Positions 17,998 to 49,893 of a stretch of DNA of 64,000 nt are shown piece after piece. Source of the DNA: Tritonibacter horizontis (lineage in GTDB: Bacteria > Pseudomonadota > Alphaproteobacteria > Rhodobacterales > Rhodobacteraceae); assembly GCF_001518015.1 (NCBI RefSeq), contig NZ_LPUY01000095.1, positions 1-64,000 on the forward strand. Direction: 5' to 3'. Each line of letters opens with the position of its first letter. The stretch's first letter is position 1. The translations under genes were made by a program, and so were the position numbers. The notes below the pieces were generated by a model. That model made no database searches. It saw nothing but the letters and a program-made list of their open reading frames with translations, and was not told the DNA's origin.

Positions 17998-18962
17998 TGG
18001 CCCTGGTGTCCGTAAAGAACCTCAGCCGGGTTTTCGATGTTTCCAAACCCTGGCTGAACCGCGTCCTGGAACGCGAACCAAAGGCCTTTTTGACCGCCGT
18101 ATCTGAGGTGGATTTCGAGGTCGAACCGCAAACAACCTATGCGCTGGTGGGGGAGTCCGGTTCGGGGAAATCCACCATTGGGCGGATGCTGGTTGGGCTA
18201 TTGAAACCTTCGGGCGGCAATGTCGACATCGACGGGGTCGATCTGGCCAACGAAACGGATGCTGCCAAGATCGACGCGATCCGCTCTGACATCCAGATGA
18301 TCTTTCAGGATCCCTATGCCTCGCTCAATCCACGGTGGCGGGTGCGCGATATCATCGCTGAACCGGTGGCTGCCCGCGGCGGCAAGACCGACGGGTTGGC
18401 GGAAAAGCTGCTGGAACAGGTCGGGCTTTCGGTCAAGGACGCCGGCAAATTCCCGCATGAATTCTCTGGCGGTCAGCGCCAGCGGATCTGTATCGCGCGG
18501 GCGCTGGCCTCCGAACCGCGCCTGATCGTCTGTGACGAGCCGACCTCGGCGCTGGATGTCTCCGTTCAGTCGCAGGTGCTGAACCTGATGAGCGATCTGA
18601 AAGACAACTTTGGCCTGACCTACGTGCTGATCACCCATGACCTGACGGTGGTGCAGCATATGGCGGATCGCATCGGGGTGCTTTACCTTGGCCGCCTCGT
18701 CGAAGAGGGGGCGCCGGAGGATCTGTTCGACGCGCCCAAACATCCCTACACGCAGATGTTGCTGGACGCCGCGCCGCGCATGGACGGGTTCGGACGCGAG
18801 GCGACCCCGCCGGAGGGCGAAATCCCCGACCCGATCAACCCGCCGTCCGGCTGCGCCTTCCACCCGCGCTGCCCCTTGGCGGCAGAGGTCTGTCACAAGG
18901 AGCGCCCGGTCATGCGCCGCCTGGGCAACACCCGCGTTGCCTGCCACATGGCAGAGGAATAA
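17997..18962 (+). CDS. ABC transporter ATP-binding protein, DppF type
   Basis: A 321-residue ATPase with Walker A GESGSGKSTIGRM, signature FSGGQRQRICIARAL, Walker B LIVCDEPTSALD and C-terminal CAFHPRCPLAAEVC, the DppF counterpart of the preceding gene. The start is the ATG that overlaps the upstream TGA; a longer in-frame reading exists but lies inside the DppD-type gene. It completes the transporter, and is followed after 23 nt by the ProC-like gene, so the reductase is likely in the same transcript. Confidence 0.92.
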   Translation: MALVSVKNLSRVFDVSKPWLNRVLEREPKAFLTAVSEVDFEVEPQTTYALVGESGSGKSTIGRMLVGLLKPSGGNVDIDGVDLANETDAAKIDAIRSDIQMIFQDPYASLNPRWRVRDIIAEPVAARGGKTDGLAEKLLEQVGLSVKDAGKFPHEFSGGQRQRICIARALASEPRLIVCDEPTSALDVSVQSQVLNLMSDLKDNFGLTYVLITHDLTVVQHMADRIGVLYLGRLVEEGAPEDLFDAPKHPYTQMLLDAAPRMDGFGREATPPEGEIPDPINPPSGCAFHPRCPLAAEVCHKERPVMRRLGNTRVACHMAEE

Positions 18963-37434: not shown

Positions 37435-37471
37435 TTTTCACGACCAAACAGGACATTGGTCAAGATAAATT

Positions 37472-37486
37472 TGTTACTAAGGTACA
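37472..37486 (+). promoter_or_regulatory. RpiR-box copy 2 (TGTTACTAAGGTACA)
   Basis: Second 15-bp copy, 52 bp from copy 1, central in the dctQ-rpiR intergenic region. Confidence 0.68.
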
Positions 37487-37533
37487 AATAATGGGAAATG
37501 CTACAGAAAATGGCTCCGCATTTGATCTCTGGA

Positions 37534-37548
37534 TGTATCTTAGGTACA
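37534..37548 (+). promoter_or_regulatory. RpiR-box copy 3 (TGTATCTTAGGTACA)
   Basis: Third copy, 62 bp from copy 2 and 31 bp upstream of the regulator's own start, suggesting auto-regulation. It is close to a perfect palindrome (TGTAyCT / AGGTACA). Confidence 0.68.
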
Positions 37549-37579
37549 GAATCGGACGGCCGAGCGGCAGGAGAGACAG

Positions 37580-38485
37580 ATGACCAATGCGGAGTTTGAG
37601 GCAGGCAAGGGGGCGGTCGATCTGATCTCGAACCTCAAACATCTGAGTGGCAGCCTCGCCGCGCGGGAGCAGAAGGTTGCGGATTACGTGTCTGCCCATC
37701 TGGAAGACGTCACCAGCATGACAATCGCCGAACTGGCCGGCGCCTGTGGCGTCAGTACGCCCACCGTGGTCCGGTTTTGCCGCACCATGGGCTGCGATGG
37801 GTTCCGGGCGTTCAAGCTGCGGCTGGCGCAGAACCTTGCGGTCAGCCTGCAATACCTCGCCCCCAGCCATCGCGACACGCCGGGCGATGGCACCAGCGCG
37901 GTGGATCAGGTGCTTGGCGCGCTTTATGCGACGGTCAATGTGATGCGGGAACAGCTCGACCCGACGCGGATGGAAGCGGCGGTGACCGCGCTGTCGCAGG
38001 CCGGTCAGATCGTTGTGGCCGGGGTTGGCGGTGGCTCCACCATGGTGGCGCAAGAGGCGGCCAATCGGATGTTTCGCCTTGGTATTCCCGCCGTTGCCGT
38101 GTCGGACAGCTATCTGTTGCAGATGCGGGCGGCGACGCTGGCACCCGGTGATGTGCTGCTGATGATATCCGCCAGCGGCGAGGCAGCGGAGATCGCGAAT
38201 GCAGCGGGCATTGCCGGGGGGTATGGGGCGACGACCATCGCGATCACCCGGCCAGACAGCCGATTGGCGCAGGAGGCCGCCATCGTGATCGAGGCCAACC
38301 TGCCAGAAGATCCCGACATCCTGAAACCCACCGCCTCGCGCTATGCCCATCTGGTGATTGTCGATGCGCTGGCGATGTCGGTTGCCCAGACCCGCAGCGC
38401 CGTCACGACAGAGAACCTGCGGCGCATCCGGGCCTCCTTGACGGCCTATCATGGCCGCACGGGACCGCAACCGCTGGGGGATTGA
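37580..38485 (+). CDS. RpiR/MurR-family transcriptional regulator
   Basis: A 301-residue regulator with an N-terminal HTH_6 domain (LAAREQKVADYVSAHLEDV, then MTIAELAGACGVSTPTVVRFCRTMG as the DNA-reading helices, about residues 47-72) and a C-terminal SIS domain (VVAGVGGGSTMVAQEAANRM, LLMISASGEAAEIANAA) that normally senses a phosphosugar or related ligand. Divergent from the TRAP operon across a gap holding three palindromic boxes. SIS-domain sensing is odd for a TRAP/hydroxyamino-acid locus, so the effector is open. Confidence 0.88.
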   Translation: MTNAEFEAGKGAVDLISNLKHLSGSLAAREQKVADYVSAHLEDVTSMTIAELAGACGVSTPTVVRFCRTMGCDGFRAFKLRLAQNLAVSLQYLAPSHRDTPGDGTSAVDQVLGALYATVNVMREQLDPTRMEAAVTALSQAGQIVVAGVGGGSTMVAQEAANRMFRLGIPAVAVSDSYLLQMRAATLAPGDVLLMISASGEAAEIANAAGIAGGYGATTIAITRPDSRLAQEAAIVIEANLPEDPDILKPTASRYAHLVIVDALAMSVAQTRSAVTTENLRRIRASLTAYHGRTGPQPLGD

Positions 38486-38500: not shown

Positions 38501-41500
38501 TCAGCCGCGCTGGGCAATCAGGTTGCGAAAGGCCTCTAGCCGGAGCTCCAGCGCATCAAACCGCGCCCGAAGCTCGGCATCCGCCGTGTCACGCGCCGCC
38601 AGCGCCAGCACAAAACTGACGGTCTTGAGCACATCGCGCCAGCGTGGATTGTCGGGCAGCGTCTCGATCAGCAGGTATTTGTCCAGGGTCCGGGTCTGCA
38701 GCGAGGTCTTGTCGAGGTTCACCCGCCAGATGCCGCTGGTCTCGGCAAAGTCGATCTTGCCCTTGCCGGTGGCCGCGGTCCAGATCTCCAGCGAGTCGGA
38801 CATCAGATCGACGATGGTGTCACGATAGCTGTCGCCCGGCGTCTGCTGCAACTCCTCCGCCGGATCGTCCGAAATCAGCGAGGGCAGCGAGGTATCCACC
38901 AGATCGCGCAGCGAATGCACGAAGTCTTCGCGCGGGGCAGCCGCCTGACTGAACAGGACGGCGCGGCCGCCGCCCGCCTCTGGCAGCATCGCGAACAGGC
39001 TGACCTGCAACAGCCGCGCGTTCAGGGTGATCTCGATATGGATCGGTTCGTCCTCCACGTCGATCTCGGCCAGGGCCGCCAGCGCCGCCTCGGGCATCAC
39101 CGCGTCAAGGCGGCTTCGGTTGGCGGTGACACGCTGGTCGAGCAGTTGCTGCGCCGCCTCGTTCACATAGGTGACCACGCCCCGCGCGTTGACGCAGATC
39201 AGCCCATCCTCCAGCGTATCGAGCAATTGCGCCATGCGCCGCTGGGACAGGCGCAGGGCATCCTCGATCTGGATGCGGCGTTCGATCTCGTCCTTCAGGG
39301 CGCGGTTTTCCTCGGCCCGGCTGCGGGCGCGGCTGGCCTCCAGCAGGGTGCGGATCCGGCTGAGCAATTCGTCCCGCACGAAGGGTTTGACGACATAGTC
39401 GTTGGCGCCGGCTTCGAACCCGGCGAGCAGGTCGCTGGTGCGGCCCCGGGCGGTCAGCAGGATGATCGGCAGTTCGTGCAACCCGTGCCGCCGCCGCAGG
39501 TTGCGCGCAACGTCCAGCCCGCTGAGGCCACCCATCATCACATCCAGCACGATAAGGTCGGGACGCCGCTCCGCGACACTGCGCAACGCTTCGGCGCCAT
39601 TTGCGGCGGTGGTGACGCGGTAGCCCTGCGGCTGCAATACGTTCTGCAGCACTTGCAGATTGATCGGTTCGTCATCCACGGCAAGGATCACCGGCGCGCC
39701 GTCGGGGTCGGTCCCGGACCGGCCGTCGGCAGCGGGGCCGGGGGCCGGCGTTGCGTCTGATGCCTCTTCGATCAGGGGGGCTGCGGTCCAGTCCTCACCG
39801 CCGAGGGCGGGCAGGTCGGATTGCGGCAGCAACACCTGAAACTCCGCGCCCGCGCCGGCTGGGGACAGAACGTCGATGGTGCCGGACATCAGGGCCGCCA
39901 GATGGCGCGCGATGGTCAAGCCAAGGCCGGTGCCGCCGGGTTGTCCGGCCCCGTCCGGGGTCAGTTGTTCCAGCGGGTGAAAGATCCGTTCCATGTTGTC
40001 GGCGGCGATCCCGGGGCCATGATCGCGGATCGAAACTGCGATGCGCCCGTCCGCGCGGGGCGCTGCAGAGATGTCGACCGCGCTGCCACCGCCGTATTTG
40101 ACGGCGTTCGATAGCAGGTTGAACAGGATCTGTTCAAACCGGACCGGGTCGGCGGTCACGGCCGGCAGGTCGTCCGGGATCGCCAGTCGCACCTTGGCCG
40201 GGTCAATGCGGAAGGTCGGTTGCAGCAGGTGCAACACATTGCGCACCGCATGGGACACATCGACCGGTTGCAGATCCAGCCGCATCCGACCCTCCCGGAT
40301 GCGGTAGATGTCCAGCAGGTCATCCACCAGCCGCGACAACCGCCGCGCGGAAAAGGTGATCAGCCGCAGCTGGCTGGTCTGGGCGGGCAGCATGTCCCCC
40401 ATCGCGCCGCCTTCGAGGGTTTCGAGGATCCCGATGATGCCGTTCAGCGGCGTCCGCAACTCGTGCGAGGTATTGGCCAGAAACCGGTCCTTCATCCGGT
40501 CCGCCTCTTCCAGCTTGGCATTTTTCTCGCCGATCTGGCGCAGGTTCTCCTGCAATTCGGCGTTCTTGTCGCGGATCAGGTCAAGCTGATCCCGCAGCGC
40601 TCGCCGCATCTGGTTCACCGCCCGCGACAGGCGCGCGTATTCGACCGGCCGGTCGTATTCCGGCAGCGCGTCGTTCAGGCTGCCGGTGGCCACGGCGCTG
40701 GCGGCCTCGGACAGGCGCCGGACCGGGCGGGTCAGCGCGTTGGCGAACAGAAACGACAGAAGCGCCAGCCCGGTGACCGCCACCGCCCCGATCAGCAGTA
40801 ACGCGTTGCGCAGCCGGTGGCTGGTTTCAAAGGCTGCGGTCTGGCTGGCCTCGGCAATGATGGTCCAGGTCGGAAAGGGCGCATCAAGCACCCGCCAGGC
40901 CGACAGGGACGCAAGGCCCGCCAGGCCGGCCGACAGCACGCTGACCCCCTCGTGGCTGGTCATCGCCGGGGGCAGCGCAACCGCCGTGCCCGGCACCGGC
41001 GCGCCGCTGGAGGCAATGACGATGCCGCCGGAGGAGATCACCGAGAGCGCGGTTTCGCTCTCTGTCATCAGGCTTTGCAGGCTGTTGGGCGGCACCCGCA
41101 GGATCATGGCACCCTTGTGGCGGCCATGCAGCCGCACCGGCACCGCCAGATAGGCCGACAGCGCACCGGTGACCGCATCGCGGGCATAGTCCTGAAACAC
41201 CGGCTCGAACCCCGTCTGGGTGGTCGCCCGGTGATAGGCCTGGCCCAGACCGGTCACCGCCGGGTCGAGGATCTGGCCGAGATAGGCATCCTTGTGCACC
41301 GAATAGACCACTTGCCCGTGACGGTCGGCGAGGTAGAGATTGTCAAATTCCGCCTCGTCCAGAAATTCCAGGAACCCGGCGTGGAACCGGCGATGGGTGT
41401 TGGAATACTCCAACGCTTCGCGCAAGAGACGGTCCTCGCTGCCAATTCCTGCCGGGGGCAGGGGGGTGGTGTCGACACCAAAGATGTCGCGCAGCCGCGC

Positions 41501-41881
41501 GCCGGCCTCTTCGGGCGTGGCGTCGATCTGGCGTAGCGCGTGGCTGAAACCGTAGAATTCGCCGACCGAGTAGCGCACGTTGGAAGATTGCGCGAGGTTC
41601 TCTGCCTGCCGACGCGCATAGGTCATATACTGGGTGATCTCGCTGGCCTTGGCATCGCGCACAAAAGCCACCTTTTGAAACGTCTCGGTGGTGACGGTCT
41701 GGTTCACCAGCCGGTAAAACACCAATCCCCCCAGGGTCAGCGGCAGCACCGATGCCAGCAGAAAGGTCAGCAAGAGGCGAGAGCGAATTCCCTGTAGCAG
41801 CACGGTGGCTCCGGTTTTTCTGGTTTTGTCTGGGCACGATCCTGCGGCCTGCTTGCGGGTGAAGCAAGGGCAGTTGGTCAT
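38501..41881 (-). CDS. chiS: ChiS-like hybrid sensor kinase with cryptic C-terminal DNA-binding domain
   Basis: A 1126-residue protein: membrane helix about 36-58, periplasmic Cache-like domain to about 355, second helix about 359-381, HAMP and coiled coil, HisKA with His473 in TSHELRTPLN, ATPase domain (NLLSNAVKYGG, DHGPGI, GGTGLGL), receiver domain with Asp780 (LIVLDVMM) and KPF, a PAS domain, and a C-terminal region (about 1015-1090) with SGIWRVNLDKTSLQTRTLDKYL and LPDNPRWRDVL. Length, order and that last segment match Vibrio ChiS, which binds DNA directly and is controlled by a chitin-oligosaccharide-binding protein. Divergent from such a binding-protein gene, as in Vibrio. The start may lie slightly further in. 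Confidence 0.82.
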   Translation of the reverse strand: MTNCPCFTRKQAAGSCPDKTRKTGATVLLQGIRSRLLLTFLLASVLPLTLGGLVFYRLVNQTVTTETFQKVAFVRDAKASEITQYMTYARRQAENLAQSSNVRYSVGEFYGFSHALRQIDATPEEAGARLRDIFGVDTTPLPPAGIGSEDRLLREALEYSNTHRRFHAGFLEFLDEAEFDNLYLADRHGQVVYSVHKDAYLGQILDPAVTGLGQAYHRATTQTGFEPVFQDYARDAVTGALSAYLAVPVRLHGRHKGAMILRVPPNSLQSLMTESETALSVISSGGIVIASSGAPVPGTAVALPPAMTSHEGVSVLSAGLAGLASLSAWRVLDAPFPTWTIIAEASQTAAFETSHRLRNALLLIGAVAVTGLALLSFLFANALTRPVRRLSEAASAVATGSLNDALPEYDRPVEYARLSRAVNQMRRALRDQLDLIRDKNAELQENLRQIGEKNAKLEEADRMKDRFLANTSHELRTPLNGIIGILETLEGGAMGDMLPAQTSQLRLITFSARRLSRLVDDLLDIYRIREGRMRLDLQPVDVSHAVRNVLHLLQPTFRIDPAKVRLAIPDDLPAVTADPVRFEQILFNLLSNAVKYGGGSAVDISAAPRADGRIAVSIRDHGPGIAADNMERIFHPLEQLTPDGAGQPGGTGLGLTIARHLAALMSGTIDVLSPAGAGAEFQVLLPQSDLPALGGEDWTAAPLIEEASDATPAPGPAADGRSGTDPDGAPVILAVDDEPINLQVLQNVLQPQGYRVTTAANGAEALRSVAERRPDLIVLDVMMGGLSGLDVARNLRRRHGLHELPIILLTARGRTSDLLAGFEAGANDYVVKPFVRDELLSRIRTLLEASRARSRAEENRALKDEIERRIQIEDALRLSQRRMAQLLDTLEDGLICVNARGVVTYVNEAAQQLLDQRVTANRSRLDAVMPEAALAALAEIDVEDEPIHIEITLNARLLQVSLFAMLPEAGGGRAVLFSQAAAPREDFVHSLRDLVDTSLPSLISDDPAEELQQTPGDSYRDTIVDLMSDSLEIWTAATGKGKIDFAETSGIWRVNLDKTSLQTRTLDKYLLIETLPDNPRWRDVLKTVSFVLALAARDTADAELRARFDALELRLEAFRNLIAQRG

Positions 41882-42147
41882 TCTCGGGCTGTGGGGCGTA
41901 TTCGGGAAAACACAGTAAGCGATTGAAAATGTTTATGTATCTCCACCGGTGAACCCGCCGCGCGCCCTGTTTTGACGAAATTTCCGATTTTTCGGGTACC
42001 ATTCGGGGGGCTGCGCGGACTTCATTGGGGGGCATCCAAGGCGCTCGGGAGGAGACTGGGCCCACCACAGGATCCAGGCCGCCACCGGGCGGAAATTGAC
42101 GGATGACATCAGGCGGGGCAAACCCGCTGCCACAGGGAGATTACCAA

Positions 42148-43809
42148 ATGAAATTGACTGTAACTGCCGGATTGCTGGCCTCGGCTTCGGCCGCGCTCTG
42201 GGCGACGACGGCACAGGCCGAAGAAACCGTATTGAGCGCGCTGCCGGAGCAGGTCACCGCCTGGGTCGAGAACTTCAACCCGTTCAACCAGACCACTACC
42301 GCGCCTTCGGTGCTGCATTTCATGTATGAACCGCTGATCATCTTCAACGCGCTGGATGGCGGCAAGCCGGTGTACCGTCTGGCTACCGGGCATGACTACT
42401 CCGAGGATCTCAGCAGCATCACCGTGACCCTGCGCGAGGGTGTCGAATGGTCCGATGGCGAGGCTTTTGACGCCGATGACGTCGTCACCTCCTTCGAACT
42501 GGCGCTGGGCAATCCGGCGCTCGACAGTGTCGGCATGGCGCAGATGTTGTCGGGGGTCGAGAAAATCGACGCGCAAACCGTGCGCTTCAACCTCTCTACC
42601 CCGTCGAGCCAGGCAATGTATCAGATCGTGCGGGTGCCGATCGTGCCGGATCACATCTGGAGCAAGATCGACGATCCGGTCACCTTCACCAACCCCGACC
42701 CTGTCGGTTCCGGTCCGCTGACGGAAATTCGCCGGTTCACGCCGCAGGAATACATCCAGTGCCGCAACGACAACTATTGGGACGCTGAGAGCCTGCACGT
42801 CGATTGCATGCGCTTCCCGCAGATTGCCAACAACGATCAGGCCCTTGCCGCGGCCTCCAACGGCGAGCTGGACTGGATGGGATCGTTCCTGCCGGACATC
42901 GAAAACACTTATGTTGCCAAGGACCCGGAACATCACAGCTACTGGCTGCCCGGCGGCTCTCTTGTGGCGTTCTACATGAACTTCGAAGCCCCGGAAGAGG
43001 GTGACCGCGCCGCCTTTAACAACGTCGATTTCCGCCGTGCGGTGTCGATGGCGTTTGACCGCGAGGCGATGGTGGAAATCGCCGGCTATGGCTATCCCAC
43101 CATCAACCAGTATCCGTCGGGCCTGGGCCGCGCGTTCCATTCCTGGAACAACCCCGAGGTTGACGAGAAATTCGGCGCCTTCACCCAATATGACCTGGAC
43201 GGCGCGCGGGCCCTGTTGGCAGAGGCCGGGTTCAAGGACATCGACGGCGACGGTTTTGTCGAAACCCCGGAGGGTGCGCAGATCGACCTGGAGGTGATCG
43301 TCCCCAACGGCTGGACCGATTGGGTCAACAGCTGCCAGATCGCGGTCGAGGGGCTGAACGCGGTTGGCATCAGGGCCAATGTCTCCACCCCGGAATCCGC
43401 CGTCTGGACGGAAAAGCTGATCAACGGCGATTATGACATGGCGATCAACTCCGTCCGCGTCGGGGCGACGCCGTTCAACCAGTATCTCGACTCTCTGCAC
43501 GAATCGAACCAGGCCAAATCGCGCTTTGCCGCGTCGCGCTACTATAACGCCGAACTCAGCGGCCTGCTGGATGCATTTACCCAGACCAGCGACACGGAAA
43601 AGCAGATGGCGATCATGTCTGACGTGCAGGAAATCGTCGGGGCGGACATGCCGCTGGTGACGGTTTTCAACAACCCGCGCTGGTATCAGTACAACACCAA
43701 ACGGTTCACCGGGTTCTTCAACGCGGACAACCCGGTCGCCAACCCGGTGGTGCATAAGACCAACCCGGCGCGGCTGCTGCACCTCCTGGCGCTGCGCCCG
43801 GTGGAATAA
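42148..43809 (+). CDS. Chitin-oligosaccharide-binding protein (CBP-like, family 5)
   Basis: A 553-residue binding protein with signal peptide (ending TTAQAEE). It resembles Vibrio CBP throughout: ENFNPFNQTTTAPSVLHFMY, REGVEWSDGEAF, VDCMRFPQIANNDQ, VPNGWTDW, and at the C-terminus YNTKRFTGFFNADNP followed by RLLHLLALRPVE. CBP binds (GlcNAc)n in the periplasm, feeds the ABC transporter and, unliganded, holds ChiS inactive. The start is fixed by AGGGAGATTACCAA. First gene of the operon, divergent from chiS. Confidence 0.87.
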   Translation: MKLTVTAGLLASASAALWATTAQAEETVLSALPEQVTAWVENFNPFNQTTTAPSVLHFMYEPLIIFNALDGGKPVYRLATGHDYSEDLSSITVTLREGVEWSDGEAFDADDVVTSFELALGNPALDSVGMAQMLSGVEKIDAQTVRFNLSTPSSQAMYQIVRVPIVPDHIWSKIDDPVTFTNPDPVGSGPLTEIRRFTPQEYIQCRNDNYWDAESLHVDCMRFPQIANNDQALAAASNGELDWMGSFLPDIENTYVAKDPEHHSYWLPGGSLVAFYMNFEAPEEGDRAAFNNVDFRRAVSMAFDREAMVEIAGYGYPTINQYPSGLGRAFHSWNNPEVDEKFGAFTQYDLDGARALLAEAGFKDIDGDGFVETPEGAQIDLEVIVPNGWTDWVNSCQIAVEGLNAVGIRANVSTPESAVWTEKLINGDYDMAINSVRVGATPFNQYLDSLHESNQAKSRFAASRYYNAELSGLLDAFTQTSDTEKQMAIMSDVQEIVGADMPLVTVFNNPRWYQYNTKRFTGFFNADNPVANPVVHKTNPARLLHLLALRPVE

Positions 43810-43829
43810 CCTCCCGCAAAGCGAAGGGG

Positions 43830-43847
43830 CCGCCCCAATCGGGGCGG
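43830..43847 (+). other. Intercistronic hairpin after the binding-protein gene
   Basis: CCGCCCC, AATC, GGGGCGG, a perfect 7-bp stem without a T-run, 21 nt after the stop. It fits a stabiliser that keeps binding-protein mRNA in excess over the permease part. Confidence 0.6.
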
Positions 43848-43890
43848 TCCCGCCTTGGCGCCCCTTTTCCTCGACAGATGGTCTGACCCG

Positions 43891-44868
43891 ATGCGTTTTC
43901 TTCTGAAGCGGCTGAGTTTTTATGCCGTTGCCTTTCTCGTGGCTGCGACGTTCAACTTCATGATTCCGCGGCTGTTGCCCGGCAACCCGGCGGACATCAT
44001 GCTGGCCAATTCCGGCGGCATGATCGCGCCCGAAGCCCGCGATGCGCTGATGGCGACCTTCGGGTTCATCGACGCGCCGCTGCATGAACAGTATTTCGCC
44101 TATCTCGGTTCGATCTTCACCTGGGATTTTGGCCTGTCGATCAAATTCTACCCGATGCCAGTCGCCGATGTGCTGACGCAGGCCCTGCCGTGGACGCTGT
44201 TCCTGACCGGCGCGGCGCTGTTGATCGCTTTCTCGACAGGCACGCTCCTGGGTATTCTGGCCGCCTGGCGGCGCGGGCAGCTGACGGATGTGATCGCCTC
44301 GCCCACCGCGCTGGCGCTGCAATCGGTACCGGCCGTGGTGGTGGCCCTGTGTGGTCTCTATTTTCTGTCGGTGCGCAACCGGGTGTTTCCGACCTCTTAT
44401 GCCTATGACCCGAAACTGGACCCGGCCTTCAGCTGGGAATTCGCCGCCTCTGTTGCCTACCACGGTTTTCTGCCGGTGGTGACGCTGAGCGTGGTGCTGG
44501 TGGGCGGCTATCTGATCACCATGCGCAACAACATGATCGGCCAGCTGGGCGAGGACTACCTTGCCATGGCCGAAGCCAAGGGGCTGAGTGATGCCCGCGT
44601 GCGCTATGCCTATGCGGCGCGCAATGCGCTGTTGCCGTCGGTGACCGCGCTGGCGCTCAGCTTCGGGGCGCTGTTCGGTGGCTCGCTGATCACCGAGGTG
44701 GTGTTCAATTATCCCGGCGTCGGCAACCTGTTGTACCTTGGCATCGTCGGGCGCGATTTCCCACTGATCCAGGGTCAGCTTCTTATCATGACACTCGCCA
44801 TGCTGCTCGCGAACCTCGCGGTGGATCTGGCCTATGTCTTTCTTGATCCCAGACTGAAGAGGGCCTGA
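43891..44868 (+). CDS. Chitooligosaccharide ABC transporter permease (DppB type)
   Basis: A 325-residue permease starting MRFLLKRLSFYAVAFLVAATFNFMIPRLLPGNPADIML, with about six membrane segments and the EAA loop MAEAKGLSDARVRYAYAARNALLPS. Twelve in-frame codons upstream are ignored because the family begins at this Met. Its TGA overlaps the next ATG by one base. It belongs with the preceding CBP-like protein, so the likely substrate is (GlcNAc)2 or longer. Confidence 0.9.
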   Translation: MRFLLKRLSFYAVAFLVAATFNFMIPRLLPGNPADIMLANSGGMIAPEARDALMATFGFIDAPLHEQYFAYLGSIFTWDFGLSIKFYPMPVADVLTQALPWTLFLTGAALLIAFSTGTLLGILAAWRRGQLTDVIASPTALALQSVPAVVVALCGLYFLSVRNRVFPTSYAYDPKLDPAFSWEFAASVAYHGFLPVVTLSVVLVGGYLITMRNNMIGQLGEDYLAMAEAKGLSDARVRYAYAARNALLPSVTALALSFGALFGGSLITEVVFNYPGVGNLLYLGIVGRDFPLIQGQLLIMTLAMLLANLAVDLAYVFLDPRLKRA

Positions 44869-45776
44869 TGCCAGATCTCCTCCGTACCTTTTTGCGCAAC
44901 CGCAAGGCCGCCATCGGACTGGCCATCGTGCTGGCCTATGTGGTCGTCGCGCTGGTGGCGCCGCTGATTGCGCCCTTTGACCCCATCGCCCGCGTGGGCC
45001 GACCGCACCAGGCACCCTCGGCTGAACATTGGCTGGGCACCACCCGCATGGGGCGGGACGTGTTCAGCCAGCTGATCTGGGGCACCCGCACCTCCCTGAT
45101 GGTGGGGATTGTGGCCGGGTTGATCGTGACCGCGATCGGCACCGCCATCGGCATCACGGCGGCCTATTTCGGCGGTCTGGTGGATAATGTGCTGAACTTT
45201 TTCACCAATGTCGTGCTGGTGCTGCCGCAACTGCCGCTGTTGCTGGTGCTCGCCGCCTTTCTGGGGCAGGTGGGGCCCTGGGCGATTGCGCTGATCATTG
45301 GCCTGACCTCCTGGGCCTGGGGGGCGCGCGTCACCCGTGCGCAGGCGATGTCGCTGAAGACCCGCGACTTTATTCAGGCCTCCGCGATGATCGGCGAGCC
45401 GACCTGGCGGATGATCCTGGTGGAGATGCTGCCGAACCTTTTGTCGATCATCGGCTTCAACTTTATCGGTTCCGTCATCTTTACCATCATCACCGAGGCG
45501 ACGCTGGAATTCCTCGGTCTGGGCAGCCCCTTGGCGCTGTCCTGGGGCACCATGCTTTATAACGCGCAGACCGCCTCGGCGATCATGGTCGGCGCCTGGT
45601 GGGAGGTGCTGGCCCCCTGCGCCGCCATCGTGCTGATCGGCGTGGGCCTGTCGCTGATGAACTTCGGTGTGGACGAGATCGCCAACCCGCGCATGCGCAC
45701 GCTGGGCAACGTCGCCAAGGCGTTGCGGATTGAGAAGCGCCTGTTGCGCCAGCGCATGCAGGAGGCAAACCAATGA
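44868..45776 (+). CDS. Chitooligosaccharide ABC transporter permease (DppC type)
   Basis: A 302-residue permease with LGTTRMGRDVFSQLIWGTRTS after the first membrane helix (DppC signature), about six membrane segments and the EAA loop QASAMIGEPTWRMILVEMLPN. Its stop overlaps the following ATPase start by 4 nt (ATGA). Confidence 0.91.
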   Translation: MPDLLRTFLRNRKAAIGLAIVLAYVVVALVAPLIAPFDPIARVGRPHQAPSAEHWLGTTRMGRDVFSQLIWGTRTSLMVGIVAGLIVTAIGTAIGITAAYFGGLVDNVLNFFTNVVLVLPQLPLLLVLAAFLGQVGPWAIALIIGLTSWAWGARVTRAQAMSLKTRDFIQASAMIGEPTWRMILVEMLPNLLSIIGFNFIGSVIFTIITEATLEFLGLGSPLALSWGTMLYNAQTASAIMVGAWWEVLAPCAAIVLIGVGLSLMNFGVDEIANPRMRTLGNVAKALRIEKRLLRQRMQEANQ

Positions 45777-46588
45777 GCGATCTGCTGACCGTCGAAGGGC
45801 TGCGGGTGGACTATCTGACCGCAGGCGCGCCCTTTACCGCCGTGCGCGACATCTCGTTCCAGATCCAGCCGAATGAAATCCTCGGCCTTGCGGGGGAATC
45901 CGGTTGCGGCAAGAGCACCGTGGCCTATGCGCTGATGCGTCTGCACAAACCGCCTGCATTGGTGCGTCGGGGCCAGATCCTGTTCGAGGGTCGTGATGTG
46001 CTGTCGTTCACCGACACGCAACTGCGCGCCTGGCGTTGGTCCGAGGTCTCCATGGTGTTTCAAAGCGCGATGAACTCGCTCAACCCGGTGATGACCATCT
46101 TTCGCCAGTTTCACGACATGCTGCGTGCGCATGGGCCCATTACCCGCGCCGACGCGATGGACCGCACGGCCGAGATGCTGGAGATGGTCGGCATCCCCGC
46201 CGACCGGATGCAGGCCCATCCGCATCAATTGTCGGGGGGGATGCGGCAGCGGGTGGCGCTGGCCCTGGCGCTGACTTTGCTGCCCAAGTTGATCATCATG
46301 GACGAGCCGACGACCGCGCTTGATGTGGTGGTGCAGCGCGAGATCCTGCAAGAGGTCCTGCGCCTGCGCGAAAAGTTGGGGTTTTCGGTACTGTTCATCA
46401 CCCATGACATCGCGCTGATGGCACAGATTTCCGACCGGATCGGCATCATGCGTGCGGGCGAGATTGTGGAAATCGGCACCGCGTCGCAGATCGTGACCGC
46501 GCCCGTGCATGACTACACCCGCAGCCTGTGGGACGCGATGCCGATCCTGGCCAATGCTGCCGAGAAAGGGCCTGCCCATGCTGTCTGA
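45773..46588 (+). CDS. Chitooligosaccharide ABC transporter ATPase (DppD type)
   Basis: A 271-residue ATPase with Walker A GESGCGKSTVAYAL, signature LSGGMRQRVALALAL and Walker B LIIMDEPTTALDVV. It is shorter than the DppD-type ATPase at 17023-17997 because the C-terminal cysteine-containing extension is missing. It forms a heterodimer with the next ATPase, which overlaps its last 11 nt. Confidence 0.91.
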   Translation: MSDLLTVEGLRVDYLTAGAPFTAVRDISFQIQPNEILGLAGESGCGKSTVAYALMRLHKPPALVRRGQILFEGRDVLSFTDTQLRAWRWSEVSMVFQSAMNSLNPVMTIFRQFHDMLRAHGPITRADAMDRTAEMLEMVGIPADRMQAHPHQLSGGMRQRVALALALTLLPKLIIMDEPTTALDVVVQREILQEVLRLREKLGFSVLFITHDIALMAQISDRIGIMRAGEIVEIGTASQIVTAPVHDYTRSLWDAMPILANAAEKGPAHAV

Positions 46589-47534
46589 TCCCCCGATCCT
46601 GTCGCTGGACCGTCTGACCAAGACCTTTACCCTGCGTCCGATCTTTGGTCGCGCCACCCAGGTGGAGGCCCTGCGCGCCGTCTCGCTCGACCTGTTGCCG
46701 GGCCGGGCACTGGCGCTGGTGGGCGAAAGCGGCTCTGGCAAGAGCACCGTGGGCCGGATGATCGTCGGCCACCATGCGCCGACCTCGGGGCGGATCCTGT
46801 TCGAGGGTCGGGACATCGCGGAGCTGACCCGACGCGGCGATCAGATGCGCTATCGTCAGGCGGTGCAGATGGTGTTTCAGGACCCGTTTTCGGCCCTGAA
46901 CCCGGCGCATACGATCCGTCATCATTTGCAGCGCGCCCTGTCGTTGCATCAGCCGGAGGCCGATCCGGAGACCGCCCTGCGCGAGATCCTTGACGATGTG
47001 GATCTGGACCCGGTCTCGACCCCGTCGAAGTTCCCGCATGAACTGTCGGGTGGGCAGCGCCAGCGGGTGAATTTTGCCCGGGCGCTGGCGGTCAGGGCAC
47101 GGCTGATCGTCGCGGATGAACCGACCTCGATGCTGGATGTGTCGATCCGCAAGTCGATCCTCGCGCTGATGCAGCGGCTCAAGACCGAGCACGGCCTGTC
47201 GATCCTTTATATCACCCATGATATTGCCACGGCAGAGTATCTGGCCGAGGACACGGCGGTGATGTTCCGGGGGCAGGTGGTCGAAAAGGGCCCGACCGCG
47301 CAGGTGGTCGGCGCACCGCAGCATGGCTACACCCGGTTGTTGCGTGCCGCCGTGCCGGATCCGTCGATCCGGCTGACGGGCAGCGATGCCGGCTTTGCCC
47401 AGGATGCCCGACAGGTGCGCGCCGCCAGCGCGGCTGCGGTTCGCGGCATGACCGAAGTGTCCACCGGGCATTTCATCGCGGATCATGCTGCTGGCGACCA
47501 TGCCACTGCCGAAACGGAGCGGGCCGATGCCTGA
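46578..47534 (+). CDS. Chitooligosaccharide ABC transporter ATPase (DppF type)
   Basis: A 318-residue ATPase with Walker A GESGSGKSTVGRM, signature LSGGQRQRVNFARAL and Walker B LIVADEPTSMLDVS. The start MLSDPPILSLDRL inside the end of the previous gene gives a normal N-terminus. After the ATPase core there is a tail of about 50 residues (GSDAGFAQDARQVRAASAAAV) without the cysteine motif of DppF. It overlaps the GNAT gene by 8 nt. Confidence 0.9.
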   Translation: MLSDPPILSLDRLTKTFTLRPIFGRATQVEALRAVSLDLLPGRALALVGESGSGKSTVGRMIVGHHAPTSGRILFEGRDIAELTRRGDQMRYRQAVQMVFQDPFSALNPAHTIRHHLQRALSLHQPEADPETALREILDDVDLDPVSTPSKFPHELSGGQRQRVNFARALAVRARLIVADEPTSMLDVSIRKSILALMQRLKTEHGLSILYITHDIATAEYLAEDTAVMFRGQVVEKGPTAQVVGAPQHGYTRLLRAAVPDPSIRLTGSDAGFAQDARQVRAASAAAVRGMTEVSTGHFIADHAAGDHATAETERADA

Positions 47535-47982
47535 CATGCTGGTCCCGCTCTATCGCTTGCCGTCGCAGGGGGCGCTGCCGGAGGGGGTCACCCTGCGGCC
47601 CGCCCTGCCGTTCGAGGCGCATGAGGTGCTGGCGTTTGTCGCGGCGCATTTTGGCCAGAAGTGGGTCGATGAATGCACCGTGGCGCTGGCGGCGCGCCCC
47701 GCCCGCCTCCTGATTGCGACCGAGGGCACGCATCTGCTGGGCTTTGCCTGCTATGACGTGACCTTTCGCGGGTTTTTCGGCCCCACCGGTGTCGCCCCGG
47801 AGGCGCGCGGCAAGGGGCTGGGCAAGGCGCTGCTGCTGGCGGCCCTTCACCGGTTGCGCGACGATGGCTTCGCCTATGGGATCATCGGTGGCGCCGGGCC
47901 GGTGGCGTTTTACCAGGAGACCTGCGGCGCTACCCCCATTCCAGACAGTGATCCGGGCGCCTACAGCGGCGCGCTGGTCTGA
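47527..47982 (+). CDS. GNAT-family N-acetyltransferase
   Basis: A 151-residue GNAT protein with the acetyl-CoA pyrophosphate loop VAPEARGKGLGKALL (about residues 87-101) and a C-terminal GGAGPVAFYQETCGA segment. Placement between the chitooligosaccharide transporter and the hexosaminidase, with overlap to the former, suggests it acts on an amino sugar, for example acetylating partly deacetylated chitin oligomers so that the GH20 enzyme can use them. That is inference; the family has very broad substrates. Confidence 0.85.
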   Translation: MPDMLVPLYRLPSQGALPEGVTLRPALPFEAHEVLAFVAAHFGQKWVDECTVALAARPARLLIATEGTHLLGFACYDVTFRGFFGPTGVAPEARGKGLGKALLLAALHRLRDDGFAYGIIGGAGPVAFYQETCGATPIPDSDPGAYSGALV

Positions 47983-48009
47983 CATACATTCACAACAGGA
48001 TTTATTGAG

Positions 48010-49893
48010 ATGCAGTTTCACCTCGACAGTCTTTGGCACGCCGAAGAAGACGCGATGGAGTTCGCCCTGACCAATTGCGGGCCCAGCCCGGTGGCCAATC
48101 CGCGCCTGGTCTATGCCACGCTGACGCGCTGCTTGCGGCCGTCGCGCTGCACCGGTGCGACCTTGCTGCGGCGGCAGGCGAATTTTCACGAATATGCCAG
48201 CGCCGACGGTTTTGTGCTGCAGCCGGGCGAGACCTGGCGGTTCACGGAATACAGTCTGACCCGGCCGGCGCTGCATTCCAACGAAGGGCCGAAATCGGCG
48301 GGCGTGCGGCTGGAAGACGGCACCCTCGTCCCTGCTTTTGCCAGCGATCTGCAGGCCGCCACGGCCGTGGGGCGGGCGGCGCCGGCAGGGCGCGCCGATC
48401 TGACCTGCGGTGTCCTGCCCGAACCCCGACGGGTCGCGGTCACGGACTGGCAGGCAAAGGCACCGGTGCATCTGGCGCTGCAGGGTCGGGATCTGGCGGT
48501 GCTGCAAACCGTGTCGCGTGTGGCGGCACTGACCCGTCGGCTGCATCCCCTTGCGCCGGTGCCCTTCGTGCTGACGGCAAAGGCGGATGTGTCGCCGCTG
48601 GTGGTGGTGGCCGATCCGGCGCTGGGCGAGGACGCCTATCGCATCGTCTGGCACGACGGCGAGGCCAGATTGCACCATGGGACGGGGCAGGGACTGTTTT
48701 ACGGGCTGGTCACGCTGGCGCAGCTGATGACCCATGCCCATGACGCCCCCGGCCGATACGGCGTGCCGCTGACCGGTGTGGTCGAAGACGCCCCGCGCCA
48801 CGGCTGGCGGGGGGCGCATTTGGATGTGTCACGCCAGTTTTATCCGTTGGACCAGGTGCTGCGCTACGTCGATATCCTCGCCTGGCACAAGATGAACCGG
48901 TTCCATTGGCACCTGACCGATGACGAAGGCTGGCGGCTGGAAATCAAGGCCTATCCGCAGCTGACCGAGGTTGCGGCCCATACCGGGATGGCGCTGCCGG
49001 TGCTGCCGCAGCTTGGCCCTGACATCACCGGGCAGAGCGGGTTTTATACCCAGGCCGAGGCGCGGCAAGTGGTCAAACATGCCGCCGGTCTCGGTGTCGA
49101 GGTGATGCCGGAGATCGACGTGCCGGGCCATTGCGCCTGCGTCCTTGGGGCCCTGCCGGAGCTGGTCGATGCGGAGGAGCCGGAAAGCTACTGGTCGGTG
49201 CAGGGATTTGGCAACAACGCGCTGAACCCGGCGATCGAGGGGTCTTATACTTTTGCCGAGACGGTGCTGGCCGAGGTCTGCGAGATCTTTCCGTTTGAGA
49301 TCATCCATGTCGGCGGCGACGAGGTGGCCGAAGGCGCCTGGATGCAATCGCCCAAGGCGCAGGCGATGATGCGGGAAACGGGACTGAAGGACACCCACGA
49401 GATGCAGGCCTATTTCCTGCGTCACATTCAGGAGTTCCTGATCGGCCTCGGGCGCAGGCTCGGCGGCTGGGAAGAGGTCGCCCACGGCGGTGGCCTGAAC
49501 CCGGCGCATTGCCTGCTGTTCGCCTGGACCACCATCGAGAAAACCGCAGAGCTGGCGGATGAGGGCTATGACGTGGTGAGCACGCCGGGGCAGGCCTATT
49601 ACCTTGATATGGCCCTGTCGGACGATTGGTATGCACCGGGGGCGAGCTGGGCCGGGTTTACGCCGCTGGACAAGACCTATGGCTTTGAGGCGGACAATGG
49701 CGCGGCGGCGCTGGCGGGGCGGCTGAAGGGGGTTCAGGCCTGCGTCTGGAGCGAGCATCTGACCACGATGGCGCGCAAGAACCACATGATCTTTCCGCGG
49801 CTCAGCGCCATTGCCGAAGCAGGCTGGAGCGCGGCAGAGCGCAAGGATTTCGACCGGTTCAAGGCGCTGGCACCGCTGATGCCGGACCTGTGA
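48010..49893 (+). CDS. Beta-N-acetylhexosaminidase, GH20, cytoplasmic
   Basis: A 627-residue GH20 enzyme: an N-terminal domain, a small alpha/beta domain (about 150-255), then the TIM barrel from RGAHLDVSRQFYPLDQVL, with HKMNRFHWHLTDDEGWRLEI and the catalytic Asp437-Glu438 pair in IIHVGGDEVAEGAW. It releases terminal GlcNAc from chitin oligosaccharides by substrate-assisted catalysis. No signal peptide is present, so it acts in the cytoplasm on imported oligosaccharides, as does the hexosaminidase of the Vibrio chitin operon. It ends the operon. Confidence 0.92.
   Translation: MQFHLDSLWHAEEDAMEFALTNCGPSPVANPRLVYATLTRCLRPSRCTGATLLRRQANFHEYASADGFVLQPGETWRFTEYSLTRPALHSNEGPKSAGVRLEDGTLVPAFASDLQAATAVGRAAPAGRADLTCGVLPEPRRVAVTDWQAKAPVHLALQGRDLAVLQTVSRVAALTRRLHPLAPVPFVLTAKADVSPLVVVADPALGEDAYRIVWHDGEARLHHGTGQGLFYGLVTLAQLMTHAHDAPGRYGVPLTGVVEDAPRHGWRGAHLDVSRQFYPLDQVLRYVDILAWHKMNRFHWHLTDDEGWRLEIKAYPQLTEVAAHTGMALPVLPQLGPDITGQSGFYTQAEARQVVKHAAGLGVEVMPEIDVPGHCACVLGALPELVDAEEPESYWSVQGFGNNALNPAIEGSYTFAETVLAEVCEIFPFEIIHVGGDEVAEGAWMQSPKAQAMMRETGLKDTHEMQAYFLRHIQEFLIGLGRRLGGWEEVAHGGGLNPAHCLLFAWTTIEKTAELADEGYDVVSTPGQAYYLDMALSDDWYAPGASWAGFTPLDKTYGFEADNGAAALAGRLKGVQACVWSEHLTTMARKNHMIFPRLSAIAEAGWSAAERKDFDRFKALAPLMPDL

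Follow-up and report, generated by a model that had tools for sequence, protein, structure and literature searches.

The window analysed here is a 64,000-nucleotide stretch of the genome of Tritonibacter horizontis (4.86 Mb in 139 contigs, 99.79% complete). It holds a block of eight genes in which chiS, coding for a hybrid histidine kinase, is separated by a short gap from cbp, the genes of an ATP-binding cassette (ABC) transporter, an acetyltransferase gene and a glycoside hydrolase gene (Table 1). All eight were confirmed at the positions given by an initial annotation. Its description of a kinase divergent from a binding protein, a Dpp-type transporter, a GNAT enzyme and a GH20 enzyme was borne out by Pfam, which assigned the binding protein to SBP_bac_5 and recognised a pair each of permeases and ATPases. 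The block is probably a ChiS-CBP island for the sensing and uptake of chitooligosaccharides, with ChiS acting at a direct repeat within the gap. Its bearer is a marine alphaproteobacterium of the Roseobacter type, and neither a GH18 nor a GH19 chitinase was detected in the genome.

Table 1. Features of the chiS-cbp block (positions in the window)
Feature	Position	Strand	Basis or remark
chiS	38501..41881	-	membrane hybrid histidine kinase; ChiS-family DNA-binding domain at about 1017-1095
predicted ChiS operator TTTTGACGAAATTTCCGATTTTTC	41970..41993	+	9-bp-period direct repeat
cbp	42148..43809	+	homologue of periplasmic chitooligosaccharide-binding protein, SBP family 5; signal peptide assigned by inspection
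ABC permease, DppB type	43891..44868	+	Pfam
ABC permease, DppC type	44868..45776	+	Pfam
ABC ATPase, DppD type	45773..46588	+	Pfam
ABC ATPase, DppF type	46578..47534	+	Pfam
GNAT acetyltransferase, possibly a glucosamine N-acetyltransferase (inferred)	47527..47982	+	Pfam, operon context
GH20 beta-N-acetylglucosaminidase	48010..49893	+	Pfam; by eye without signal peptide

The product of chiS has 1126 residues and, judged from its sequence and a structural model, is a full-length ChiS. Pfam found HAMP (378-431), HisKA (463-531), HATPase (578-687), REC (732-844) and PAS (882-917), among them the HisKA, receiver and PAS domains ascribed to it by the initial annotation; the dCache domain (150-302) scores 41 bits and stays under the cut-off of 45. 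Hydropathy places transmembrane helices near residues 36-54 and 361-379, on both sides of the periplasmic domain, and the residues H473 (HisKA) and D780 (REC) are invariant in the window protein and six relatives. The start of the gene may be internal, because the open reading frame of a relative (L017) begins opposite residue 29. In the C-terminal part, where the motifs SGIWRVNLDK and LPDNPRWRDVL were both found, the claim of a ChiS-type DNA-binding domain was upheld by sequence and by fold. The last 237 residues match PDB entry 7kpo, the DNA-binding domain of Vibrio cholerae ChiS, with E = 2.3e-22, the run LQTRTLDKYL being identical. An AlphaFold model of the domain made from 20 window and locus sequences reached a pLDDT of 85 and comprises a helix (38-45), two strands (51-53 and 56-58) and a second helix (60-64); with this model Foldseek returned 7kpo (E = 3.4e-8) as the sole match at 0.001. 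Five residues of V. cholerae ChiS are critical for DNA binding (PMC8092284). Their counterparts, derived by sequence alignment with the 7kpo chain numbered from that paper, are K1058, R1064, K1068, R1080 and R1082, four identical and one (1068) exchanged from R to K. In an alignment of 20 sequences from alpha- and gammaproteobacteria, the domain has 23 columns without any variation.

The label of a CBP-like protein given to the cbp product (P0002) was likewise supported. It matches nine distinct PDB chains at 4e-168 to 9e-165, other families following only from 1e-56, and it shows no grouping of the peptide or cellobiose type. Among the matched chains 1zty carries the name Chitin Oligosaccharide Binding Protein, 5yqw, 6lzq and 7ebi are VhCBP (PMC8449061), and the remaining ones are generically named. 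By these matches and by the CBP tree described below, the protein is a member of the VhCBP/VcCBP sequence family. The GH20 enzyme has as its closest solved structure 6ezr, the beta-N-acetylglucosaminidase Nag2, and for the acetyltransferase the sequence itself indicates the GNAT family and nothing finer. Internal ATG codons of the longest open reading frames are the likely starts of permease B (43891), the second ATPase (46578) and the GNAT gene (47527). No GH9 or phosphorylase gene was found in the operon, as the initial annotation had stated.

A search for shared sites in the gap between chiS and cbp (41882-42147), proposed by the initial annotation, yielded the direct repeat. Among Rhodobacteraceae the gap is poorly alignable apart from one main block (TTTTGACGAAATTTCCGATTTTTC), and the form TTTTGACGAAANTTNCGATNTTTC was found at no more than two mismatches in all 14 examined regions, the window included. 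The element reads TKMCGA-N3-TKMCGA with a period of 9 and is probably the ChiS operator. Of the 77 upstream regions, 28 contain an exact copy of the pattern, which was derived from alphaproteobacterial regions; mononucleotide shuffles gave 0.05. With two mismatches allowed, the pattern by itself is uninformative (18/77 by chance), and for this reason a matrix of 34 alphaproteobacterial sites was scanned over whole loci. The matrix was built from those 34 of 45 alphaproteobacterial upstream regions with at most one mismatch, the gammaproteobacterial regions having been viewed once with the pattern beforehand. In 35 of 44 alphaproteobacterial loci, a count not independent of the training, the best hit of the whole locus was no more than 450 bp upstream of CBP; among the 32 gammaproteobacterial loci this held for 11, where 0.7 was expected. 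Many of the other gammaproteobacterial hits were close to the start of chiS. The region upstream of that gene was therefore added after the CBP-only count, and the number then became 24/32 (1.4 expected). None of 300 column-permuted matrices reached the observed counts (mean 1.4 and maximum 7 for CBP alone, mean 2.5 and maximum 8 for CBP or chiS). Dinucleotide shuffling of each locus gave p<0.05 in 21 of the 32 gammaproteobacterial regions, and the genus medians combined to p = 1.7e-6. Half-sites TDACG placed 9 bp apart were present in 24/32 gammaproteobacterial and 20/45 alphaproteobacterial regions (0.1 and 0.4 in shuffles). Half-site spacings of 30 and 39 in 23/32 and 22/32 gammaproteobacterial regions correspond to two boxes 30 bp apart, a layout in agreement with the pair of ChiS sites described for the chb promoter (PMC8092284). 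It was also observed that in gammaproteobacterial loci (for example L095 and L064) the element is often top-scoring upstream of chiS itself, which suggests autoregulation or control of a neighbouring gene. In its own genome the element at 41970-41993 is the sole match at up to 3 mismatches of 24, so that a multi-site ChiS regulon was rejected at this threshold, which weaker sites would escape.

The two genes travel together. In the order, the ChiS domain was found in 7 of 292 genomes (own genome counted), CBP at 67% identity or more in the same seven, and all seven, the window included, hold the complete eight-gene block with chiS divergent; an eighth genome has a 40% CBP relative (E 3.5e-122) and no ChiS. 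Within the genus the occurrence is patchy, three of five sampled genomes carrying both chiS and CBP. More widely the domain was present in 9 of 385 class-sampled and 15 of 398 phylum-sampled genomes (own genome counted each time); of the eight class matches outside the order, seven belong to open frames 498-632 codons long and the other to a frame of 1133. No relative was found in viral contigs. Locus comparisons were based on the best 80 of 298 confirmed places from a scan of named genomes. Both genes are present in 75 of these 80, tandem in 28, divergent in 43 and overlapping head to head in 4, the overlap arising because longest open reading frames were used. All 28 tandem loci are gammaproteobacterial by name, and four divergent ones (L081, L103, L107, L110) bear gammaproteobacterial or symbiont names. 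The orientation is divergent in alphaproteobacterial loci and tandem in the Vibrionaceae loci holding both genes, so the view that the gene order is the same as in Vibrio had to be given up, and a tandem order was rejected for the window. Additional genes between chiS and cbp were noticed in some loci, a GH3-type gene in three (L070:7554-8582, L081:5625-6653, L099:10384-11400) and an OprD-type porin gene in Aestuariispira (L082:5092-6501).

It had been proposed that the whole sensory circuit was moved, or kept, as a unit outside the gammaproteobacteria. Occurrence as a unit is what the seven complete blocks of the order show; the word "whole" is not sustained, SlmA, EIIA-Glc, GH18 and GH19 not having been found in the genome. 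Sequences from Vibrionaceae and those from Rhodobacteraceae form separate deep clades in the CBP tree (62 rows) and in the ChiS tree (55 rows), and families within the alphaproteobacteria are mostly coherent in both; the unit is therefore old or was exchanged long ago, and recent transfer from Vibrio is unsupported. The trees are quick searches, drawn from the midpoint, with long-branch warnings on the ChiS tree. Fifteen loci were dropped from them by hand, namely L037, L041, L047, L051, L053, L059, L062, L065, L069, L071, L079, L084, L085, L086 and L110; loci without a long enough gene are also absent, as are, from the ChiS tree, the kinase-free forms described below. The loci L081, L089, L103 and L107 form one group in either tree, although their class labels are mixed. 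Joined by Balneatrix, this group falls to the alphaproteobacterial side in the CBP tree but to the gammaproteobacterial side in the ChiS tree, a conflict that may be due to transfer, misbinning or a long-branch effect.

Chitinases were surveyed in 30 chosen carriers (26 alphaproteobacteria and 4 gammaproteobacteria). GH18 was not found in the own genome, nor in any of 13 Rhodobacteraceae; it was present in 2/26 alphaproteobacterial carriers (Pannonibacter, partial, 48.5 bits; Nitrospirillum) and in Motilimonas and Grimontia among the four gammaproteobacteria, Balneatrix and Vibrio breoganii having none. GH19 was also not found in the own genome by a search which was clearly positive in two of the 30 carriers, Motilimonas and Grimontia. 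One of the 26 alphaproteobacteria passed the cut-off marginally (Devosia, 26 bits), and two weaker matches stayed below it (G225, a Nitratireductor). Because no chitinase was found in its genome, the source bacterium probably scavenges chitin fragments released by other microbes. Strains consuming N-acetylglucosamine (GlcNAc) and (GlcNAc)2 without chitinase have been cited as "cheaters", although in the same study just 1 of 11 late colonisers grew on these sugars (PMC4915023). EIIA-Glc (PF00358), which in V. cholerae is a repressing (catabolite-repression) input on chb with SlmA as activator (PMC5519180, PMC10208484), was not found in the own genome; five control genomes were positive.

Several findings weigh against the reading of the block as a ChiS-CBP island with ChiS acting in the gap. 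SlmA, needed for Pchb activation in V. cholerae (PMC5519180), did not pass the NF007015 cut-off in the own genome, where four weak matches lie under it and which one control genome passed. No sigma-70-like promoter was seen near the gap by a consensus scan. All 28 exact copies of the repeat pattern are alphaproteobacterial, and the element is only presumed to be identical with the published ChiS sites. The best matrix hit lies elsewhere in 8/32 gammaproteobacterial loci and outside the CBP upstream region in 9/44 alphaproteobacterial ones, most of these being donors of training sites, and the shuffle gave p>=0.05 in 11/32 (L069, L072, L081, L090, L092, L095, L096, L103, L107, L108, L110). Finally, ten sugar-contact residues of VhCBP (PMC8449061) were mapped by alignment (chain index minus 2), and four of them, E10, N409, F411 and W513, are replaced in the window protein by Q, S, R and H. 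Given that W513A costs 4.2 kcal/mol in VhCBP (PMC8449061), the exchange at 513 means that affinity or ligand may differ, and the ligand of the window CBP is uncertain.

The other six contacts are retained (N204, S221, W363, D365, R436, F437), among them the pair R436 and F437 credited with GlcNAc specificity (PMC8449061). In a comparison of 76 sequences position 513 is H in most alphaproteobacteria, Balneatrix, an Oceanospirillaceae bacterium, an Osedax symbiont and Motilimonas type 2, Y in Pelagibacterium and Devosia, F in Azospirillaceae-type rows and Aestuariispira, and W in Vibrionaceae and the tandem-type Motilimonas (type 1), but I in two Photobacterium; N409 and F411 are variable too. 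F437 is altered in three Devosia, three Niveispirillum-type rows, Aerophototrophica and Motilimonas type 2. Motilimonas sp. E26 has two ChiS/CBP circuits, one tandem with W513 and one divergent with H513 (L092, L110). It is conceivable, though rather unlikely, that the same circuit serves a different disaccharide with GlcNAc in it, for instance chitobiose that has lost some of its acetyl groups or a fragment of peptidoglycan, and that the GNAT enzyme re-acetylates glucosamine (GlcN) before GH20 acts. The differing second-site residues outside Vibrionaceae and tandem Motilimonas, the presence of both kinds of CBP in strain E26 and the GNAT gene within the operon speak for such a ligand, as does the fact that some bacterial glucosamine N-acetyltransferases act ahead of glucosaminidase cleavage (PMC4680927). 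Against it, R436 and F437 are retained in 14/14 Rhodobacteraceae-type CBPs (window included), the GNAT gene was not seen in the examined locus DNA of many carriers, and the GH20 enzyme is closest to Nag2.

ChiS proteins which have no kinase were found at 11 loci (L068, L070, L074, L075, L077-L080, L083, L086, L091) in Azospirillaceae, Rhodospirillales and one unplaced alphaproteobacterium. They are 492-691 residues long, depending on the choice of start, and end in the ChiS domain. When compared with a profile built from full-length alphaproteobacterial ChiS, their periplasmic part gave matches of 6e-32 to 2e-37. A Pfam scan of six of them gave no HAMP, histidine kinase, REC or PAS domain, and dCache was weak in three and without a match in the other three. 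In five aligned proteins the entire cytoplasmic kinase region is gone, a short proline-rich linker standing in its place, and a second transmembrane helix is over the threshold in 6/11. A predicted structure of one such protein (pLDDT 61) was too poor for use. Ten of the 11 loci have a divergent CBP gene no more than about 1.6 kb away, L070 with its GH3-type gene between the two; the sequence of L083 stops less than 1 kb upstream of chiS. Near the kinase-free ChiS and CBP of Nitrospirillum, a gene for a fused EIIA-HPr-EI phosphotransferase protein was noticed (L075:13457-16285), with a GH20 gene at 18093.

It may be that the core of the circuit consists of CBP, the periplasmic Cache domain, a membrane tether, the ChiS DNA-binding domain and the period-9 operator, and not of the kinase. 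Azospirillaceae and relatives would then run this core with a one-component ChiS that is membrane-bound and kinase-free, and Rhodobacterales and others would keep the kinase as an extra input. In the alphaproteobacterial lineage the core would have shifted to a GlcNAc disaccharide slightly unlike that of Vibrio and would serve non-chitinolytic scavengers. This broader view falls somewhat short of an even chance. The same proteins bear on a very improbable explanation, according to which the kinase is an ordinary two-component sensor signalling from H473 to D780, with the C-terminal domain a relic or a means of dimerisation and the gap element serving another regulator. Invariance of the two residues in seven sequences and good scores of HisKA, HATPase and REC would suit it, but the DNA-contact residues and the 23 columns common to both classes are retained, the kinase-free relatives keep the DNA-binding domain near CBP, and in both classes the element goes with the regions upstream of chiS and CBP. 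That the locus is a di- or oligopeptide uptake operon beside an unrelated hybrid kinase is hardly credible, since beyond the transporter parts of the Dpp/Opp superfamily it faces a CBP match some 110 orders of magnitude better than the next family (a peptide-type binding protein was rejected on this ground), GH20 in the operon and co-occurrence of CBP with chiS.

For the ChiS-CBP island a scheme can be proposed. The analysis shows the homology of its parts, their linkage and the conserved site; that CBP represses and ChiS binds DNA, which sugar is the ligand, in which direction regulation works and what the GNAT enzyme does are inferred. By analogy with Vibrio, sugar-free CBP would keep the periplasmic domain of ChiS off. 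Once CBP is loaded with sugar, membrane-held ChiS would bind the direct repeat in the chiS-cbp gap and thereby activate the cbp-ABC-GNAT-GH20 operon. The transporter would take up a GlcNAc disaccharide, the GNAT enzyme may re-acetylate GlcN units, as its place in the operon and acetylation before cleavage in other bacteria suggest, and the cytoplasmic GH20 enzyme would cleave the imported sugar. With kinase-free relatives near the same CBP and an element common to two classes, the mechanism of membrane-bound transcription factors such as ChiS and the role of the kinase become testable in non-pathogens. The gene set can also serve as a genomic marker of bacteria which may detect and import chitin fragments without making chitinase, a matter of interest for the flow of carbon and nitrogen on particles in the sea.

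The block is flanked on one side by genes for an SBP_bac_11 protein, a histidine kinase with an OmpR-type regulator and TctC/TctA, and on the other by an M81 peptidase gene and the DctM/DctP genes of a TRAP transporter. The latter are separated from chiS by an open reading frame of 336 codons (37463-38470) with no Pfam match, which may not be one gene because the frames of relatives there are shorter and partly similar.

Proteins with a ChiS-family DNA-binding domain have varied architectures, and the helix-sheet-helix domain stands at the C-terminus of a sensory protein as in the window ChiS (PMC8092284). In the accessible part of the main text of that paper no alphaproteobacterial circuit and no Cache-only form is named and no operator sequence was seen; its Data Set S1 may list such proteins. 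Among the matches listed in open-licence PMC literature, no alphaproteobacterial ChiS circuit, Cache-only ChiS or ChiS direct-repeat site was found. The kinase-free proteins share with the window ChiS the periplasmic and DNA-binding domains and a nearby CBP, and differ by the loss of HAMP, HisKA, HATPase, REC and PAS. The closest known system is the ChiS-CBP-chb circuit of Vibrio. Unlike it, the window has chiS divergent and not tandem, one element and not two boxes 30 bp apart, an operon without a GH9 or phosphorylase gene and with GNAT added, an altered second sugar site in CBP, and a genome in which SlmA, EIIA-Glc and GH18 were not found. Both circuits are alike in the sensor domains and their order, the DNA-binding domain, CBP, the Dpp-type ABC transporter, GH20 and the period-9 direct-repeat element upstream of cbp.

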